Assembly: GCA_016875875.1 (NCBI GenBank)
Contig: VGOP01000008.1
Span: 83,834 to 125,795 of the forward strand
Source: Chloroflexota bacterium
Lineage (GTDB): Bacteria; Chloroflexota; Dehalococcoidia; GIF9; UBA5629
Length of the DNA stretch: 41,962 nt
Direction: 5' to 3'
Positions 18,470 to 38,079 of the stretch are shown here, in pieces. Each line of letters begins with the position of its first letter. The stretch's first letter is position 1. The notes under the pieces were generated by a model that did not search any database, had not been told where the DNA came from, and saw nothing but the letters and a program-made list of their open reading frames with translations. Position numbers and translations under genes: made by a program.

Positions 18470-19645
18470 CTATTCCTTTGCCTTGGGGATGATGGAGCGG
18501 GCGATGATTTCTTTCTGGATTTCGTCTGTCCCGCCGCCTATTCGGGAGAGGCGGCAGTCCCGCCAATAGCGTTGAGCAGGACTGTCCATCAATAGACCAT
18601 GACCGCCATGAATTTGCAGAGCCTCATCGGCTACGCTGTTGGCTACCTGAGACGACATCAATTTTGCCATGGATATTTCTTTAACCGGATAAACTCCGTT
18701 TTCGAATAGCCAGGCCACATAATACACGAATTGCCTGGTGACTTCTATCTCTGTCGCCATATCTGCGAGCTTATGTTGAATGACTTGGAAATGAGCCAGC
18801 GGGTGACCAAATTGCTCCCTCTGTTGAGCATACTTAAGGGCGGCTTCAAAAGCTACCTGAGCCCGACCCACCGCATTAGCTGCCCCAGCTATCCTCTCTC
18901 CCTGGAGTTCCCACATAATGTGGTAGAAGCCCTTCCCCTCATCACCAATCATGTTTTCGGCTGGAACCTGACAGTTATCAAAATGAAGATGAGCAGCATC
19001 AGAGCAGACAGTCGTCACTTTGTGCAGCTTTCGCCTGGTGAATCCGGGAGCGTTTGATTCCACAAGAAACAGGGATATACCCTTATACCCTTTCTGCTCG
19101 CTGGTTCTGGCCACTACAAGGATAAAATCGGCACGGTAGCCATTGGTGATGAATATCTTCTCTCCGTTGATGACCCAGGAGTTGCCGTCCTTCCTGGCAT
19201 TTGTCTGGATGGCAGCTACATCAGAGCCAGCCTTAGGCTCGGTTACCCCTAGAGCCCCGATCTTCAGGCCACGGTTCATCGCCACCAGAAATCGTTGTCT
19301 CTGTTGTTCAGTGCCGAATTTAAAGACAGGCGGTGCGACCATTTCATTCTGAACGGATACTGCTGTGGTTACTCCACCCATGGTTGAGTGAGCTAACTCC
19401 TCAGAAAAGATTATCGAATACATGAAGTCCAGATTTTGCCCGGCGTACTTCTTGGGGAAACGCAAGCCCAGAAACCCGAGTTCGGCAAGACGCGGGAAAA
19501 TGGAGGAGGGGAATTCCTCTTTTTCTTCCCATTCATCAGCGTGAGGCGCCAGCTCTTTCTCGGCGAATTCCCTTACCTTCTTGCCGAATTGTAAGTGCTT
19601 TTCTGTGATAATTGGATGTAGTGTTTTGGGGCTTTTCTCTTCCAT
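18470..19645 (-). CDS. Acyl-CoA dehydrogenase
   Basis: This 391-residue flavoprotein has the three-domain ACAD fold: TEPKAGSDVAAI (135-146), WVINGEKIFITNG (157-169) and QIHGGHGLLMDSPAQRYWRDCR (344-365). The usual catalytic Glu of medium-chain enzymes (YEGT motif) is replaced by Gly (RIGGGTDEI, G371). A Glu is present at E250 in ELQGERIAGA, the position used as base in isovaleryl- and long-chain acyl-CoA dehydrogenases. It should oxidise an acyl-CoA to the enoyl-CoA and pass electrons to ETF; branched or longer substrates are favoured. It sits 2 bp after the CoA-transferase beta gene, as the last clear enzyme of the 24493-18470 operon. Confidence 0.92.
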   Translation of the reverse strand: MEEKSPKTLHPIITEKHLQFGKKVREFAEKELAPHADEWEEKEEFPSSIFPRLAELGFLGLRFPKKYAGQNLDFMYSIIFSEELAHSTMGGVTTAVSVQNEMVAPPVFKFGTEQQRQRFLVAMNRGLKIGALGVTEPKAGSDVAAIQTNARKDGNSWVINGEKIFITNGYRADFILVVARTSEQKGYKGISLFLVESNAPGFTRRKLHKVTTVCSDAAHLHFDNCQVPAENMIGDEGKGFYHIMWELQGERIAGAANAVGRAQVAFEAALKYAQQREQFGHPLAHFQVIQHKLADMATEIEVTRQFVYYVAWLFENGVYPVKEISMAKLMSSQVANSVADEALQIHGGHGLLMDSPAQRYWRDCRLSRIGGGTDEIQKEIIARSIIPKAKE

Positions 19646-19647
19646 AA

Positions 19648-20334
19648 CTAGAACTCCATTACTTTCAAGTCCTTGCTTATTATGAGCTTTGGTTTGGTAA
19701 ACTGCTGGATGTAGTCAACGCTTATCCCGGGGGCGAGCTCTTTCAGTTCCAGCCCGGCCTCTATAATATCAAGCACACATAGACTGGTGATGATTCTGTT
19801 TACCACGCCCTTTGCTGTCAAGGGCAAAGTGCATCGCTTTACAATCCGCGGCTTCCCGTTTCGGTCGGTATGTTCACAGATGACGATGATGCGTCTGGCT
19901 CCGTAAGCCAGGTCCATGGAGCCGCCTATGGCTCCCAAGGCCTCTCCTTCAGTTCGCCAGTTGGCTAAATCACCGGTCTCGGACACCTGGTAAGCGCCAA
20001 GGATGGCGACATCGAGGTGACGACCGCGCATCATGACAAAAGAATCTGCAGAATGGAAGAAGGAGATGCCCGGGAGCATTGTTATCGGTTGAGCCCCGGC
20101 ATTGACTAATTCCCAGTCCATTTCATCATCGCTGGCTATCGGTCCGAAGTTCAGTACACCGTTTTGTGAATGAAGGATGACTCCTTCAGGAGCAAAATTG
20201 GCTACTAGAGTCGGCAACCCGATGCCCAGGTTTGCATACATCCCCGGCTTCAGTTCTTTGGCTGCTCTTAGGCATATAAGGTCTTTGGCTAAACCTGCTG
20301 CTGGTGGTTGTTCAGAGCTACTTTCTTGGGTCAA
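19648..20334 (-). CDS. CoA-transferase family I, beta subunit with Gln at the catalytic Glu
   Basis: This 228-residue protein aligns along its length with AtoA/ScoB beta subunits: NLGIGLPTLVANFAPEGV, then HSQNGVLNFGP, NWRTEGEALGAIGGSMDLAYGARR and KRCTLPLTAKGVVNRIITSLCV. In active family I enzymes the motif is SENG, and the Glu forms the glutamyl-CoA thioester intermediate (E46 in E. coli AtoA). Here the codon is CAA, giving S-Q57-N-G. The rest of the active-site scaffold is intact. The protein may therefore be inactive in ordinary CoA transfer, may regain activity by deamidation, or may do another reaction. TTG start; the stop of the alpha gene overlaps it by four bases (TTGA). It is followed by the acyl-CoA dehydrogenase after 2 bp. 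Confidence 0.9.
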   Translation of the reverse strand: MTQESSSEQPPAAGLAKDLICLRAAKELKPGMYANLGIGLPTLVANFAPEGVILHSQNGVLNFGPIASDDEMDWELVNAGAQPITMLPGISFFHSADSFVMMRGRHLDVAILGAYQVSETGDLANWRTEGEALGAIGGSMDLAYGARRIIVICEHTDRNGKPRIVKRCTLPLTAKGVVNRIITSLCVLDIIEAGLELKELAPGISVDYIQQFTKPKLIISKDLKVMEF

Positions 20335-21068
20335 GTCTTACGCCCTTTTGTTTTGACGGTACCTTTGTATACCCAGTCCAGTGGCGGCTTCTCGGCCTTG
20401 ACCACTTTGTGGACGAAGATGCCCGGTGTAACAATAGCCTCGGGGTCGAGCTCGCCCGCCTCTACCATTTTGTCCACTTCGGCAATGGTAACCCTGGCAG
20501 CTATCGCCATGACGGGATTATGGCACCTTGCTGTCATTCGATAGACCAAATTACCCAATCTGTCACCCTTGTGTCCTTTGATGAGGGCAAAGTCGAGGGG
20601 GAGAGCGTGTTCCAGGATACACTCTCGGGTTCCGAATGTCTTTTTCTCCTTGCCTTCTTCTACTATTGTGCCCACGCCGACCGGACAGTAAAAAGCGGGT
20701 ATGCCAGCGGCGGCAGCACGCAGCCTCTCTATCAGATTCCCTAAGGGTAATATCTCTACCTCGAATTCACCCTTTAAGTATGGCTCGAGTAGAGGATTGG
20801 GAGCAGATGGATCAGCGTATCTGGCGAATGGTGTGATGGCTTTTTGGACGCTGCCGGATTGAATCAAGAATTCGAATTGTCTCGGGCTGGTAGCCACCAC
20901 GGTGAGACCTTTGACCTTTCGCTCGGCTAAAGCGAGGACGAGTCTGTACGGAGTACCGGCAGCGCCGAAACCACCAATACCAATAACAGCGCCATCAAAT
21001 ATATCGGCCACTGCTTCAGAAGGGCTGGCTACAATTTTGCTAACTACCGGCGATTTACCTGTACTCAA
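20331..21068 (-). CDS. CoA-transferase family I, alpha subunit
   Basis: This 245-residue protein matches AtoD/ScoA alpha subunits: GAVIGIGGFGAAGTPYRLV (CoA-binding glycines), AAAGIPAFYCPVGVGTIV, FALIKGHKGDRLGNLVYRMTARCHNPVMA and ELDPEAIVTPGIFV. Paired with the beta subunit, it should move CoA between an acyl-CoA donor and a free acid, activating the pathway substrate. It is slightly longer than many alpha subunits (about 220 aa) because of the N and C termini. TTG start with a weak ribosome site, 12 bp after the DUF35 gene, so it probably depends on coupling. The overlap with the beta gene fits equal production of both subunits. Confidence 0.92.
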   Translation of the reverse strand: MSTGKSPVVSKIVASPSEAVADIFDGAVIGIGGFGAAGTPYRLVLALAERKVKGLTVVATSPRQFEFLIQSGSVQKAITPFARYADPSAPNPLLEPYLKGEFEVEILPLGNLIERLRAAAAGIPAFYCPVGVGTIVEEGKEKKTFGTRECILEHALPLDFALIKGHKGDRLGNLVYRMTARCHNPVMAIAARVTIAEVDKMVEAGELDPEAIVTPGIFVHKVVKAEKPPLDWVYKGTVKTKGRKT

Positions 21069-21080
21069 GCTATACTCGCA

Positions 21081-21542
21081 CTACAACGGCTTGAAATATT
21101 TGATATCAAGGATATTGCCCTCGCATTTGTCTTTAAATACCGCCTCTACACGCATCCCTATTGTGATTTTATCAAGGGCTGTCTCTCCCAGGAGATGACA
21201 CATTCCGGTATCTGCTCCATCTAGTTGAATTATCCCGCAGGCGTAGGGAACATCTGTGGGCTGGTAGCTTGGAGAATAAGTATATTGGATAACGGTGTAA
21301 GTCTGGACAGTACCTCTGGGCAAAACCTCAACTAATTCGCTCAGATTGCTAAAACACACGGCGCAGACAGATCGGGGTGGCACGTACACCTTTTGGCAAG
21401 TAGGGCACTTCACACCCATTATCTTTTTATTATCTCTGAGCTGCCGGTAGAACTCGCTGGCAAGAGCCCCGTAGTAGTTGAAATAAGGGACGTAGAGCCG
21501 CCCTGGAACCGTGAACGGTGCAGTCGCTTCCTCTTTAGCCAT
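21081..21542 (-). CDS. DUF35 OB-fold / zinc-ribbon acyl-CoA-binding protein (first)
   Basis: This 153-residue protein has the N-terminal helix FYRQLRDNKKIMG, a rubredoxin-like zinc ribbon with C46, C49, C60 and C63, and an OB-fold domain (GTVQTYTVIQYT, CGIIQLDG, IGMRVEAVF). Such COG1545 proteins bind thiolase-fold partners and form part of the acyl-CoA channel, as in ChsH2-Ltp2 aldolase and the archaeal thiolase/HMG-CoA synthase complex. Two thiolase-fold genes and a second DUF35 gene lie just upstream in the same operon, so it is most likely a subunit of one of them. Cysteine spacing is identical in both DUF35 proteins. It is 122 bp from the preceding gene across a hairpin repeat. Confidence 0.92.
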   Translation of the reverse strand: MAKEEATAPFTVPGRLYVPYFNYYGALASEFYRQLRDNKKIMGVKCPTCQKVYVPPRSVCAVCFSNLSELVEVLPRGTVQTYTVIQYTYSPSYQPTDVPYACGIIQLDGADTGMCHLLGETALDKITIGMRVEAVFKDKCEGNILDIKYFKPL

Positions 21543-21575
21543 CCTGTCAATCCCTTTTTACTGAGAGTATTTGTT

Positions 21576-21660
21576 TGTCATTGCGACGGGCGTAAGCCAC
21601 AAAGCAACCCCGGAGATTGCCACGCTTCCCTCTCAATTACAGAGAGGAGTTGCTCGCAAT
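21576..21660. repeat. Dispersed 'gtcattgcgag / ggcaatctc' repeat, copy A
   Basis: This 85-bp element in the gap between the two DUF35 genes starts gtcattgcga, contains agattgccacgcttccctc, and ends with an inverted cgagcaa-type arm (gttgctcgcaa). Shorter relatives occur at 24653-24687 and 26091-26130. It interrupts an otherwise tight operon and could form a stem-loop in the mRNA. Confidence 0.7.
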
Positions 21661-21664
21661 TCTT

Positions 21665-22150
21665 CTAGCCTTTCACTAACCTGAAATAGAGAATATCTGT
21701 TACTAACCCCTTGCGTTCCTGCTTTGGCTTCAATACCATCTCAACCCTCGCCCCTTCCTTCAGTTTTGTCTCATCTTGCTCTTCGAGATAATGCTGAAAG
21801 GTTATTCCCTCATCAAGTAAGATATTCCCGTGAATGTAAGGCTCCGGCTCTATTTTCCCGGTGCTCGGGTTCATCTGTGGTGCAACTACCTTCTCCCACT
21901 CTATCAGCTCTCCCTTACCGGAAAGCTCTACCCAATCAGGCCATTCTGACGCTCTCACGTGGCATATTCCACAGATAATCCTGGGTGGTAATAGGAGACG
22001 CTGACATTTGGGGCAGCGACTAGCCCAGAGCTTGCCATTGTCTCGTAGCTCGACTAGCCACTTGCCCAAGTAGGGACCGGCACTCCAATTGAAAGGCAGG
22101 TTCATCAAATTTGAAGTGCCGAGGTATTCTGGCGACTCTTTTTTGTCCAA
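21665..22150 (-). CDS. DUF35 OB-fold / zinc-ribbon acyl-CoA-binding protein (second)
   Basis: From the proposed TTG at 22150 this is a 161-residue protein. It has the helix YLGKWLVELRDNGKL, zinc ribbon cysteines C46, C49, C60 and C63, and an OB-fold (GKGELIEWEKVV, YIHGNILLDEG, LKEGARVEMVLKP). TTG 22150 has GAGG about 6 nt upstream; GTG 22162 and ATG 22105 are alternatives. A frame extending to 22300 would run deep into the upstream thiolase-fold gene and is unlikely. It follows that gene's stop by 13 bp. The likely role is to assemble with a thiolase-fold partner and position the acyl-CoA substrate. Confidence 0.9.
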   Translation of the reverse strand: MDKKESPEYLGTSNLMNLPFNWSAGPYLGKWLVELRDNGKLWASRCPKCQRLLLPPRIICGICHVRASEWPDWVELSGKGELIEWEKVVAPQMNPSTGKIEPEPYIHGNILLDEGITFQHYLEEQDETKLKEGARVEMVLKPKQERKGLVTDILYFRLVKG

Positions 22151-22163
22151 ACTATTCCTCACT

Positions 22164-23324
22164 TTAATCCAGAGCTTTACTGAGCAAGTGTGCCACCGTC
22201 CAGCTGCTGCCGCCCCAGGCTGTGGTGAATGTTCTTTTAACTTCACGGTTGACCTGGCGTGCCCCGGCATCACCGCGGATTTGCAGGGCAGCTTCAGCAA
22301 CCCGTATCATCCCGGTAGCTCCAATAGGGTTAGTGGCGATGACGCCCCCTGATGGATTGACCGGAAACTCGCCATCACGGTTGGTGACACCTCTCTCGAC
22401 GAGCTTGTAAGCCTCTCCCTTTTCACAGAAGTGGAACGCCTCAGACCAGACCAACTCCGCCCATGTAGATGGCTCATATATTTCAGCCATGGAGATATCT
22501 CGGCGCGGGTTAGTTATGCCATTCCGCTTGTATATTGTTAGTGCTGCCTTTTCCAGGTTATCCAGGGAAACAGGGTCGCCTCGATTGTAGCGAGTCTCGT
22601 TGTGGACCTCGACCCAATCTTTGACCCAAACCGGCTTTCGGCTCAGTTTTTTCGCCTTTTCCTCAGAGGCGACTATTATGGCACAGGCGCCTTCCGAAGC
22701 CGGGCACATGTCGAGCCTTCTCAGTGGTGGTACCAGCATCTCAGATTTAAGCACATCTTCGACTGTTTTCAGATTTAGTCTTAGATGGGCATGGGGGTTC
22801 AGGCATGCGTTTCTATCTGCCTTTAAGCGGACCAGAGCGGCATGTTCCTCAGTGGCGCCCGATGTTTTCATGTACCAACTACCCAATCGGGCGAAGGTGC
22901 CTATAGCTCCCGTGGATATCCAGCGATCCCATAGCGGGTCAGCGACGGTTTTTAGGCCAGCTCTGCTATCTCCCTCGCTTTGTTTTTCAAAAGTGACCGC
23001 CATGACAACATCGTAAAGCCCTGAAGCAGCACAGAAGAAGGCAGTGCAGGCCAGGGTGCCGCCGGTGGTGCCACCTGTGGTTACTCTGAACCCGGGCTTG
23101 TGATAGCAGCCTACATAGTCCACCTGCCACAGGTCCTGATGGTATCTTCCCTCGAAGAGCTCCATGTTCCCCGTTACTACTGCATCGACATCTTTTATCG
23201 TTAATTTGGCATCCTCCAAAGCAGCTCTTACCGCTTCGTTGCATAACTCAGGTATGCATACATCGGGACGTTTGCTTGTATGGTATGTCTGGCCTATGCC
23301 GATTATTGCAACTCTATTAGCCAT
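22164..23324 (-). CDS. Thiolase-superfamily protein (SCP2/Ltp2-like) lacking the canonical Cys and His
   Basis: This 386-residue protein starts MANRVAIIGIGQTYH and shows the SCP2-thiolase layout (VDAVVTGNMELFEG, ASGLYDVVMAVTFEKQSEG, EIYEPSTWAELVWSEAFHFCEKG, PVNPSGGVIATNPIGATGMIRVAEAALQI). The nucleophile region that normally reads CASG is G-G-T86-T-G-G, and the usual GHP histidine is Asn (ATNPIGATG). The C-terminal CxG cysteine is also missing (AWGGSSW). Normal thiolysis is thus unlikely. Relatives such as Ltp2 act as retro-aldolases with a DUF35 partner, which fits the adjacent DUF35 genes. ATG 23324 is used; the ribosome site is weak (GGAAAG). It follows the other thiolase-fold gene by 14 bp. 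Confidence 0.87.
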   Translation of the reverse strand: MANRVAIIGIGQTYHTSKRPDVCIPELCNEAVRAALEDAKLTIKDVDAVVTGNMELFEGRYHQDLWQVDYVGCYHKPGFRVTTGGTTGGTLACTAFFCAASGLYDVVMAVTFEKQSEGDSRAGLKTVADPLWDRWISTGAIGTFARLGSWYMKTSGATEEHAALVRLKADRNACLNPHAHLRLNLKTVEDVLKSEMLVPPLRRLDMCPASEGACAIIVASEEKAKKLSRKPVWVKDWVEVHNETRYNRGDPVSLDNLEKAALTIYKRNGITNPRRDISMAEIYEPSTWAELVWSEAFHFCEKGEAYKLVERGVTNRDGEFPVNPSGGVIATNPIGATGMIRVAEAALQIRGDAGARQVNREVKRTFTTAWGGSSWTVAHLLSKALD

Positions 23325-23338
23325 CTTTTCTTTCCGTT

Positions 23339-24493
23339 TCAGGTTTTTAGGATGAGCACTGCATGATGCTGCCCGCATGGGCCATAAGTGCCGTGGGCAA
23401 GACCGGTCTTAGCTTTGGGGATTTGGTGGCCGTCTGCCTTCCCCATAAGCTGAAGAGCTACTTCAGCCACCCTGGCGATTCCAGCTACCAGCGTGGGATT
23501 CCCAGATAACACCCCACCGGATGGATTCACCGGCAGTTTGCCTCCCATCTCGGTGAGGCCTTTTTCAATTAGCTTTCCTCCGTTGCCTTTTTCACAGAAT
23601 CCCAGGCCTTCGCTCCAGAGCAACTCTTGATAGGAGTAGTATTCTGATATTTCAGCCAGGTCGCTCTCACGCAATGGGTCGGTTATCCCAGCCTGACGAT
23701 AGGCGTCCCTTGCCGCTGAAGATAGAGCATCGCATTCGGCCAGGTCTCGGTCTCCCAGATAATGGCTTTCGTAGCATTGTCCCATGCCGGCTATCCAGAC
23801 CGGTGTCTTAGCAAGTTTCTTAGCTTTCTCTTCTACAGCCAGGATTAGGCCGCAAGCTCCGTCTGAAACTGGTTTGACTTCCAGTGACTTTATAGGAGAG
23901 GCCAGTACGGGCGAATTAAGCACCTCTTTAATTGATACCGGTTTTCTCAGCTGAGCAAAGGGGTTATTTTTAGCATTGCCTCGATTCTTGACTACTACAC
24001 GAGCCCGCTGCTCTGGAGTAATCCCATATTTGTGAATATAGCGGTTTGCCTGGAGAGCGGCAGCAGCTAGGAAATCAAGGCCGACTTTCTGCTGATAAAC
24101 TGGGTCGAAGGCAAAGTTCTCTATGATGTAACCCACCGTCTGCGATTCTTTACAGGTAGCCACCACTAAGACGACGTCGTAGTGTCCAGAGAGTATTTGG
24201 AGGTAAGCGTAGATGACGGCGTTAATCCCGTCTGAGCTTATTTTCTCCTCAGCTCGCAAATGGGCGCCGGCTACTTCACCATGGGCTATGTCAGACAGGG
24301 TTCTGCCATCCCAATGGTCAGAACTACAGGTAACAGTAGCATCGATGCCAGTGCCATCCCCGGAAAAGCTAAGCCCGGTCTCTTTCAAAAGCCTCTCTAC
24401 TACCTGATAGGTAATCTCGACTTCGCGCCAGGCTGGCTTTGCCTCTTCATATTTGGTCTGGGCAACAACTACAATGCCAACTTTTCGACTCAT
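23339..24493 (-). CDS. Thiolase-superfamily protein, second paralogue lacking canonical catalytic residues
   Basis: This 384-residue protein is the first gene of the acyl-CoA operon. The layout is as in its neighbour: VGIVVVAQTKYEEAK, SGHYDVVLVVATCKES, EISEYYSYQELLWSEGLGFCEKG, PVNPSGGVLSGNPTLVAGIARVAEVALQLMG. The nucleophile site reads K-I-S86-S-D-G, so Ser takes the place of Cys, and GHP is GNP. A cysteine near the C terminus (GPCGQHH) resembles the second thiolase cysteine. The two paralogues may form a hetero-oligomer, or each may pair with one DUF35 protein. ATG follows CAGGGA at good spacing, and a strong promoter with an inverted repeat lies just upstream (24519-24574). The exact reaction is unknown; aldol cleavage is a reasonable guess. 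Confidence 0.87.
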   Translation of the reverse strand: MSRKVGIVVVAQTKYEEAKPAWREVEITYQVVERLLKETGLSFSGDGTGIDATVTCSSDHWDGRTLSDIAHGEVAGAHLRAEEKISSDGINAVIYAYLQILSGHYDVVLVVATCKESQTVGYIIENFAFDPVYQQKVGLDFLAAAALQANRYIHKYGITPEQRARVVVKNRGNAKNNPFAQLRKPVSIKEVLNSPVLASPIKSLEVKPVSDGACGLILAVEEKAKKLAKTPVWIAGMGQCYESHYLGDRDLAECDALSSAARDAYRQAGITDPLRESDLAEISEYYSYQELLWSEGLGFCEKGNGGKLIEKGLTEMGGKLPVNPSGGVLSGNPTLVAGIARVAEVALQLMGKADGHQIPKAKTGLAHGTYGPCGQHHAVLILKT

Positions 24494-36630: not shown

Positions 36631-38079
36631 ATGAAGACCGGTAAGGAATACCTTGAAAGCATCAAGAAGATGAATTTCTCGCTCTATATTGACGGTGGAA
36701 AGATAAACAATGCTCTGGATCATCCTTCAGTAAGAGCAGCGGCAAATGCTGTGGCTGCCACTTATGACCTCGCCCATGATAAAGAGATGCGGGACAAGAT
36801 AATTACCACATCACATTTCACCGGTCAACCAATACCACTGTTCCAGCACGTACCTCAAAGCGTGGATGACCTTGTCGCCAAGGTGAGCATAACGCGCTAC
36901 TGTAATCGGAGCCTAGGCATGTGCTCTTTCCGATGTATTCAGAATGCTTACGCTCCCTTGCTGTACGTCACCCACAAAGTAGATAGTGACAAGGGGACAT
37001 CGTATCACCATAATCTCATCGAATGGCTGAAATATATGCAGAAAAATGACCTCTTAGCCTGTCCGGCGATAACCGACCCCAAAGGGAATCGAAAGATACC
37101 TGCTGATAAACAACTTGACCCCGATATGTACCTGCGGGTGGTGGAAAAACGCAAGGATGGGATTGTGCTAAGGGGGGCAAAATTACATCAGACCGGGGCG
37201 GTGATCTCGCATGAGAAACTGGTCTTGCCCAGCACCACCCATCGCAAGGGGGCCGAAGCTTACGCGGTGGCCTGTGCCGTACCGGGCAATGCCAAAGGGA
37301 TTATTCACATCTCGGTGCGGCAATCTCAGGACGACCGCAGAAAAGAGGGTGTGGAGATAGACCTAGGGAACATCAGGTACGGAGTTCACGAGTGTGTAGC
37401 TATATTCGACAATGTTTTCGTTCCCTGGGAGCGGGTATTCCTGTGCGGTGAAGTGGAAGTTTTTGACGACATGGTCGGATTCTATGGCGCGTCTCATCGG
37501 CCAACCACTGGTGGCTGCAAAGCTGGCTGGGCTGACGTCCTCATTGGTGGAGTGCAACTGATGGCACAGTATAACGGTCTGGACCAGGCAGCACATGTAA
37601 AAGACAAAATAACAGACATGATAGCGATAACTGAAACCATGTATTCATGTGGCATTGCTGCTGCTGTCAGGGGGTTTGAACTGCCTCACGCTGGGTACAT
37701 CGCTGACCCTGTTCTGGCAAATAACACAAAGTATTATGCATCTAAGGCAGTGTTTGACCTGATAAGGCTGGCAGAGGACATAACCGGCGGCATTTTAGCC
37801 TGCTGTCCCAGCGAGAAGGAGATGAAGAATCCAGAAATCGCACATTACCTAGAGAGATTTCTTAAGGGAGTAGACGAGGCACCGGCTGAACATAGGATTC
37901 GTATAGTAAGGCTGATTGAAAATATCTCCTGGGGGCTGGGTGCGATATTGCACTCAGCTACGCACGGAGGCGGCTCGGGGCAGGCGTGCAAAATGATGAT
38001 TTACGAGCTTTCAAAACTCCAGCCGCACAGGGAGATGGCGATTAAATCAGCCAAAGCCCTGGCTGGAATATCGGTATAG
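36631..38079 (+). CDS. 4-hydroxybutyryl-CoA dehydratase / vinylacetyl-CoA isomerase family protein
   Basis: This 482-residue flavin and iron-sulfur enzyme is of the 4HBD (AbfD)/HpaB family. The unusual 4Fe-4S ligands of the Clostridium enzyme (Cys99, Cys103, His292, Cys299) are matched by C98 and C102 in MCSFRC, and by H289 and C296 in SHRPTTGGCKAGW. Also typical are RGAKLHQTGAVISHE and VPWERVFLCGE. It dehydrates 4-hydroxybutyryl-CoA to crotonyl-CoA by a radical mechanism; the substrate may differ in this clade. GAGGAGG lies 7 nt before ATG. It is divergent from the 3-hydroxybutyryl-CoA dehydrogenase. The pair suggests 4-hydroxybutyrate or related acid breakdown, or part of a carbon-fixation route, but the other enzymes are absent here. 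Confidence 0.9.
   Translation: MKTGKEYLESIKKMNFSLYIDGGKINNALDHPSVRAAANAVAATYDLAHDKEMRDKIITTSHFTGQPIPLFQHVPQSVDDLVAKVSITRYCNRSLGMCSFRCIQNAYAPLLYVTHKVDSDKGTSYHHNLIEWLKYMQKNDLLACPAITDPKGNRKIPADKQLDPDMYLRVVEKRKDGIVLRGAKLHQTGAVISHEKLVLPSTTHRKGAEAYAVACAVPGNAKGIIHISVRQSQDDRRKEGVEIDLGNIRYGVHECVAIFDNVFVPWERVFLCGEVEVFDDMVGFYGASHRPTTGGCKAGWADVLIGGVQLMAQYNGLDQAAHVKDKITDMIAITETMYSCGIAAAVRGFELPHAGYIADPVLANNTKYYASKAVFDLIRLAEDITGGILACCPSEKEMKNPEIAHYLERFLKGVDEAPAEHRIRIVRLIENISWGLGAILHSATHGGGSGQACKMMIYELSKLQPHREMAIKSAKALAGISV

Follow-up and report, generated by a model that had tools for sequence, protein, structure and literature searches.

A CoA-transferase-like gene pair with Gln at the catalytic Glu site in a Dehalococcoidia operon

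Gene content of the locus

The window analysed here is the whole stretch of 41,962 nucleotides from a Chloroflexota bacterium of the class Dehalococcoidia. It contains an operon in which the genes are arranged in the order thiolase-like protein 2, thiolase-like protein 1, DUF35 protein A, DUF35 protein B, CoA-transferase alpha-like subunit, beta-like subunit and acyl-CoA dehydrogenase (Table 1). The alpha gene lies upstream of the beta gene and the two overlap, such that the TTG start of the beta open reading frame (228 amino acids, minus strand) at position 20334 falls within the end of alpha and overlaps its stop codon. In profile searches, the beta subunit scored 268.3 bits against TIGR02428 (cut-off 243.55) and contained a PF01144 domain, and the alpha subunit scored 225 bits against TIGR02429 (cut-off 128.5). 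By sequence, both subunits are members of the 3-oxoacid CoA-transferase families, and the top PDB matches of the beta model in Foldseek were CtfB, AtoA and SCOT.

Elsewhere in the window, the protein encoded at 36631-38079 reached only 186 of 480 bits against HpaB-1, far below the cut-off, and is presumably a flavoprotein of the 4-hydroxybutyryl-CoA dehydratase type. Its gene adjoins 3-hydroxyacyl-CoA dehydrogenase and aldehyde:ferredoxin oxidoreductase-like genes.

Table 1. Coordinates of the operon genes and of the Gln57 codon in the window
Feature	Position	Strand	Basis and remarks
Acyl-CoA dehydrogenase (terminal operon gene)	18470..19645	-	PF00441, PF02771, PF02770; follows beta in G012 and G009
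CoA-transferase beta-like subunit (PcaJ/ScoB family) with the catalytic Glu replaced by Gln57	19648..20334	-	TIGR02428, PF01144, Foldseek
Gln57 codon CAA (SQNG; family I enzymes have the catalytic Glu here)	20164..20166	-	ORF translation, alignment to relatives
CoA-transferase alpha-like subunit (PcaI/ScoA family), Thr60-Ser61 and Leu109 in place of Asn/Asn and Gln	20331..21068	-	TIGR02429, alignment
DUF35 protein B (zf-ChsH2 and OB_ChsH2_C)	21081..21542	-	PF12172, PF01796; adjoins alpha, conserved
DUF35 protein A; its ORF probably starts too far upstream, inside the thiolase gene	21665..22300	-	PF12172, PF01796
Thiolase-like protein 1; thiolase Cys absent (TTGGTT), IYEPS for HDCF, NPIGATG for HPxGATG	22164..23378	-	
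Thiolase-like protein 2; without thiolase Cys (ISSDG) and His (GNPTLVAG)	23339..24493	-	

Replacement of the catalytic Glu by Gln in the beta subunit

The active-site motif of the beta subunit is ILHSQNGVLNFGP, in which residue 57 is Gln (codon CAA, window 20166-20164) within HSQNG. The segment hsqng aligns unambiguously with qseng in 3rrl_B, 3cdk_B and 4kgb (E values of 1e-57 to 1e-61), and identity to the solved family members is 41-48%. Gln57 therefore occupies the position of the catalytic Glu in ScoB, SCOT and CtfB, in the same alignment column as the residue changed to Ser in the CtfB E46S structure (9cry). Both the minus-strand reading of the frame and this alignment bear out the S-Q57-N-G motif with a CAA codon that the initial annotation had placed at the catalytic Glu site. 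In the AlphaFold model (mean pLDDT 72, with low confidence at residues 58-95), Gln57 is located between two short strands, matching the description of CtfB Glu46.

Residues on the CoA side of the site are retained. Asn35 (CtfB Asn22) and the Gly137-Gly138 pair are invariant in all 127 relatives compared, and the backbone oxyanion hole is attributed to the Gly pair; the external oxyanion hole has been described as "strictly conserved" (PMC4876117). Residue 75 is Glu in all five Gln-type proteins, i.e., those with Gln at the catalytic site, and in 7 of the 122 Glu-type proteins, 111 of which have Asp there.

Loss of the acceptor site in the alpha subunit

In crystal structures of CtfAB, CtfA Gln98 (2.5 A) and Asn50 (3.4 A) bind the acceptor acetate beside CtfB Glu46 (PMC12400318). 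When these two CtfA residues are mapped onto alpha by alignment, in which the two sites are slightly offset from each other, the Gln98 position is Leu109 in the window and Leu or Ile within the Gln clade, and the Asn positions are Thr60-Ser61 in the window and Leu-Ala in a fused relative described below. Asn or Gln is found at positions 60, 61 and 109 in none of the five Gln-type pairs, and at least one of them is kept in 110 of 114 Glu-type pairs. The Gln98 position is also replaced (by Met, Ile or His) in 21 Glu-type pairs; hence its loss alone is no proof of lost transferase function, and Leu109 was rejected as a marker specific to Gln-type pairs. The loop TSPRQ (residues 60-64) is strictly conserved among the four orthologues.

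Considering that the acceptor amides are lost and the CoA-side residues are kept, the half of the active site that serves the free carboxylate and covalent catalysis by Glu has been dismantled while the acyl-CoA half was retained. The initial annotation had regarded the alpha subunit as intact, which is true of its scaffold and does not extend to its active site.

A different acceptor site was observed in a separate Dehalococcoidia group (L005, L006, L174 and related loci), whose beta subunits have AEIG or SEIG for SENG with the Glu kept, and whose alpha subunits have YPMG or YPIG with the Gln98 position lost, an arrangement unlike that of the solved enzymes.

Distribution and evolution of Gln-type proteins

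Four additional proteins with Gln at this site were found in three other assemblies, one for each of three other genera in the window's family. Their identities to the beta subunit of the window are 85% (G015), 82% (G012, contig C170), 75% (G009) and 60% (G012, contig C61), and three of the five Gln-type genes use the codon CAA at site 57, the other two CAG. Among 127 relatives with the motif read, which are the best-ranking ones with DNA fetched, Gln is present in 5 and Glu in 122, and the restriction of Gln to this group holds for that sample. The initial annotation had named Glu in all close orthologues as the finding that would count against its reading; the opposite was found, in that every orthologue detected has Gln.

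Phylogenetic analysis places the five Gln proteins in a single clade (support 100/98) with one Glu-to-Gln change on the tree, and the clade remains (support 98) in a tree built without the Gln column. Because the changes in both alpha and beta lie on one ancestral branch, their coupling counts as only one event. Pairwise comparisons of beta orthologues gave dN/dS values of 0.06-0.09 at near-saturated dS (1-2.4), with similar results for alpha and the neighboring genes. Gln57 is thus held by strong purifying selection across the clade, and a chance substitution in one lineage is ruled out by this selection together with clade-wide fixation.

The most divergent member, on contig C61 of G012, is a natural in-frame fusion of alpha and beta (470 codons; L173, 741-2153), and the same genome also carries an unfused Gln-type operon. 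Since the fused protein is a paralogue that still has Gln, this residue has survived both duplication and gene fusion.

Searches for further Gln-type orthologues added none from 84 genomes of the order or from 393 of the class, gave no match at E <= 1e-76 besides the window's own in a sample of 400 genomes of the phylum, and found none in viral contigs. The distribution is patchy: G001-G003, which belong to the window's own genus, are without the beta gene, two of them being only 77% complete. In view of this absence the operon looks accessory, as a result of loss, transfer or incomplete assembly.

Two interrupted genes, either real or due to error, were also noticed in two genomes of one genus, namely an alpha gene with an in-frame TAG (G014:C28:54545-55273, L141) and a beta gene broken by a frameshift (G022:C5:38554-39220, L018 and L027).

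Genomic context and the thiolase-like/DUF35 cassette

The full gene order of the operon is common to three genomes (the window, G012 and G009). In G015 the same order extends up to the contig end, and no dehydrogenase was found there; the fused paralogue likewise lies downstream of two DUF35 genes. The four-gene cassette of thiolase-like and DUF35 genes is widespread in Dehalococcoidia, being present at nearly all of 20 loci examined around homologues of thiolase-like protein 1. At none of these 20 loci do CoA-transferase genes directly follow the cassette, and those found nearby are at least 1.3 kb away and encode Glu in beta and PQG or AQG in alpha.

The nucleophilic Cys and the catalytic His of thiolases are missing from both thiolase-like proteins, orthologues included, which rules out thiolase activity for these neighbors. 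Several motifs of thiolase-like protein 1, namely TGGT(T/S)G, IYEPS and TNPIGAT, recur in Dehalococcoidia cassettes (L195-L214; window 21081-24493). The HDCF motif of thiolases corresponds to YDHF in the Ltp2 aldolase (PMC12329534), and the first residue of this motif in thiolase-like protein 1 is Tyr. With this Tyr and without the Cys and His, the neighboring genes look like a non-thiolytic module for carbon-carbon cleavage. They share with the steroid aldolases Ltp2-ChsH2 and Sal-Shy a thiolase fold without the nucleophile, a DUF35 partner and the first-position Tyr (IYEPS), but thiolase-like protein 1 has YEPS rather than YDHF or YDCY. The Dehalococcoidia cassette is possibly retro-aldolase-like.

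Comparison with known family I enzymes

The pair shares its sequence family, alpha-beta organization, fold, CoA-side Asn35 and Gly-Gly with SCOT/ScoAB/PcaIJ (TIGR02428/TIGR02429) and CtfAB, whereas it has Gln for Glu, and Thr and Leu/Ile for alpha Asn50 and Gln98. Both the Glu nucleophile and the acceptor amides were tested for and found absent, so that membership of the sequence family does not carry over to membership as a CoA-transferase enzyme.

Two groups of family I proteins without the Glu have been characterized. IpdAB, the COCHEA-CoA hydrolase of steroid ring opening, has Gly57 in beta, shows no transferase activity and catalyzes hydrolytic ring opening; like the window pair, it has the family I fold without Glu and thiolase and acyl-CoA dehydrogenase genes alongside (PMC5380842). 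AibA/AibB, a 3-methylglutaconyl-CoA decarboxylase, also combines the family I fold with a replaced Glu and non-transferase chemistry; it has Cys56 at the site and stays active with Ala, Ser, Asn or Val there, and a Glu of AibB near this site can deliver a proton (PMC7756340). Both, however, belong to the glutaconate CoA-transferase branch and differ from the window pair in the residue itself (Gly or Cys rather than Gln57). The alpha matches are distant, with E values of about 1e-11 to the probable IpdA entries 6co6 (2e-11) and 6coj and about 7e-8 to AibA, compared with 1e-52 to ScoA. We found no report of natural Gln variants or of a self-activating Gln mutant in the part of the literature covered and, to our knowledge and within that coverage, a Gln-site member of the SCOT/PcaIJ branch has not been described before.

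Possible functions of the Gln-type pair

We propose, with a probability of roughly 55%, that the pair arose by duplication and repurposing of a family I CoA-transferase, has lost CoA transfer and would act as a hydrolase or lyase of the IpdAB or AibAB sort. The altered chemistry suggested by the initial annotation gains support here from a Gln fixed throughout the clade and from an alpha acceptor site dismantled along with it. Such a pair would still bind acyl-CoA, and the retained oxyanion hole would polarize the thioester carbonyl. Without the Glu, neither a glutamyl anhydride nor a glutamyl-CoA could form and no transfer to a second acid would follow; instead, water attack on the bound acyl-CoA or its carbon-carbon cleavage (of the hydrolase or the retro-Claisen/decarboxylase type) might take over. 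Gln57 may then hold substrate or water in position as an uncharged hydrogen-bond donor, comparable to the Gly site of IpdAB or the Cys site of AibAB, and the pair may either provide the acyl-CoA on which the adjoining thiolase-like/DUF35 module acts or take it away. In CtfB, E46S supports neither transfer nor hydrolysis and E46A is inactive, while Asp at the site gives a hydrolase (PMC12400318). Removal of the carboxylate by itself thus makes no hydrolase, and a Gln enzyme would need compensating changes, for which the alpha TSPRQ loop and beta Glu75 are candidates.

The strongest rival is that the pair is a dead pseudoenzyme that binds acyl-CoA or CoA as a scaffold, carrier or regulator for an assembly of the thiolase-like, DUF35 and acyl-CoA dehydrogenase proteins. 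Loss of both nucleophile and acceptor site in a fold that keeps its CoA-side residues, under strong selection and in a tight operon, would fit this, as would the fact that Ser or Ala at the site kills CtfAB (PMC12400318). A binding role, one of the options named in the initial annotation, is compatible with the sequence. We nevertheless consider it unlikely, because every member has one specific residue, a pattern other than drift, and a strictly conserved TSPRQ loop is more readily explained by a reshaped active site than by decay.

Slow self-activation by deamidation had also been suggested initially, in which a single attack of the CoA thiolate on the Gln57 amide releases ammonia and yields a Glu enzyme that then runs normally. 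Gln and Glu are isosteric, the CoA side of the site is undamaged, and a laboratory-made Glu-to-Gln variant of glutaconate CoA-transferase reportedly regains activity on incubation. But Glu is one base away and has not been restored, Gln being kept through near-saturated dS and in the diverged fused paralogue, and the amides in alpha that would hold the acceptor carboxylate are also gone, which makes this route improbable.

Ordinary transfer or hydrolysis could alternatively be carried out with another nucleophile or base, such as Glu75 or a residue of the altered alpha loop. The enrichment of Glu75 in Gln-type proteins and the proton-donating Glu of AibB (PMC7756340) point in this direction. 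However, AibB Glu72 misses beta Glu75 by about two residues in the phmmer alignment, and the model is of low confidence at 58-95, so that distances cannot be argued from it; the equivalence of the two residues was not upheld and serves as a lead only, and we give this alternative little credence.

Finally, a sequencing or assembly error at the CAA codon, which the initial annotation had allowed for given the single base that separates CAA from GAA, or a decaying pseudogene, has a negligible chance of being correct and is refuted by the orthologues, with the same residue in four independent assemblies, two synonymous codons (CAA and CAG), intact open reading frames and dN/dS of 0.06-0.09.

Implications

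A more far-reaching version of the proposed repurposing, which we put forward tentatively and with the odds against it, is that the pair represents a third and independent exit from CoA-transferase chemistry, this time in the SCOT/PcaIJ branch, the earlier two having occurred in the glutaconate branch. Here, the Glu-to-Gln change and acceptor-site loss would have produced a neutral-site enzyme that cleaves or hydrolyzes acyl-CoA within a non-thiolytic thiolase-like/DUF35 complex for carbon-carbon cleavage. Annotation pipelines would label the pair as a 3-oxoacid CoA-transferase, since both curated cut-offs are passed even in the absence of the catalytic residue. Gln at this site is normally installed by enzymologists only as a dead mutant. 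If the repurposing is true, the Gln-type pair would be a natural experiment in reaction switching of the CoA-transferase fold, and it would point to an uncharacterized carbon-carbon cleavage module in Dehalococcoidia, contained in one small operon.
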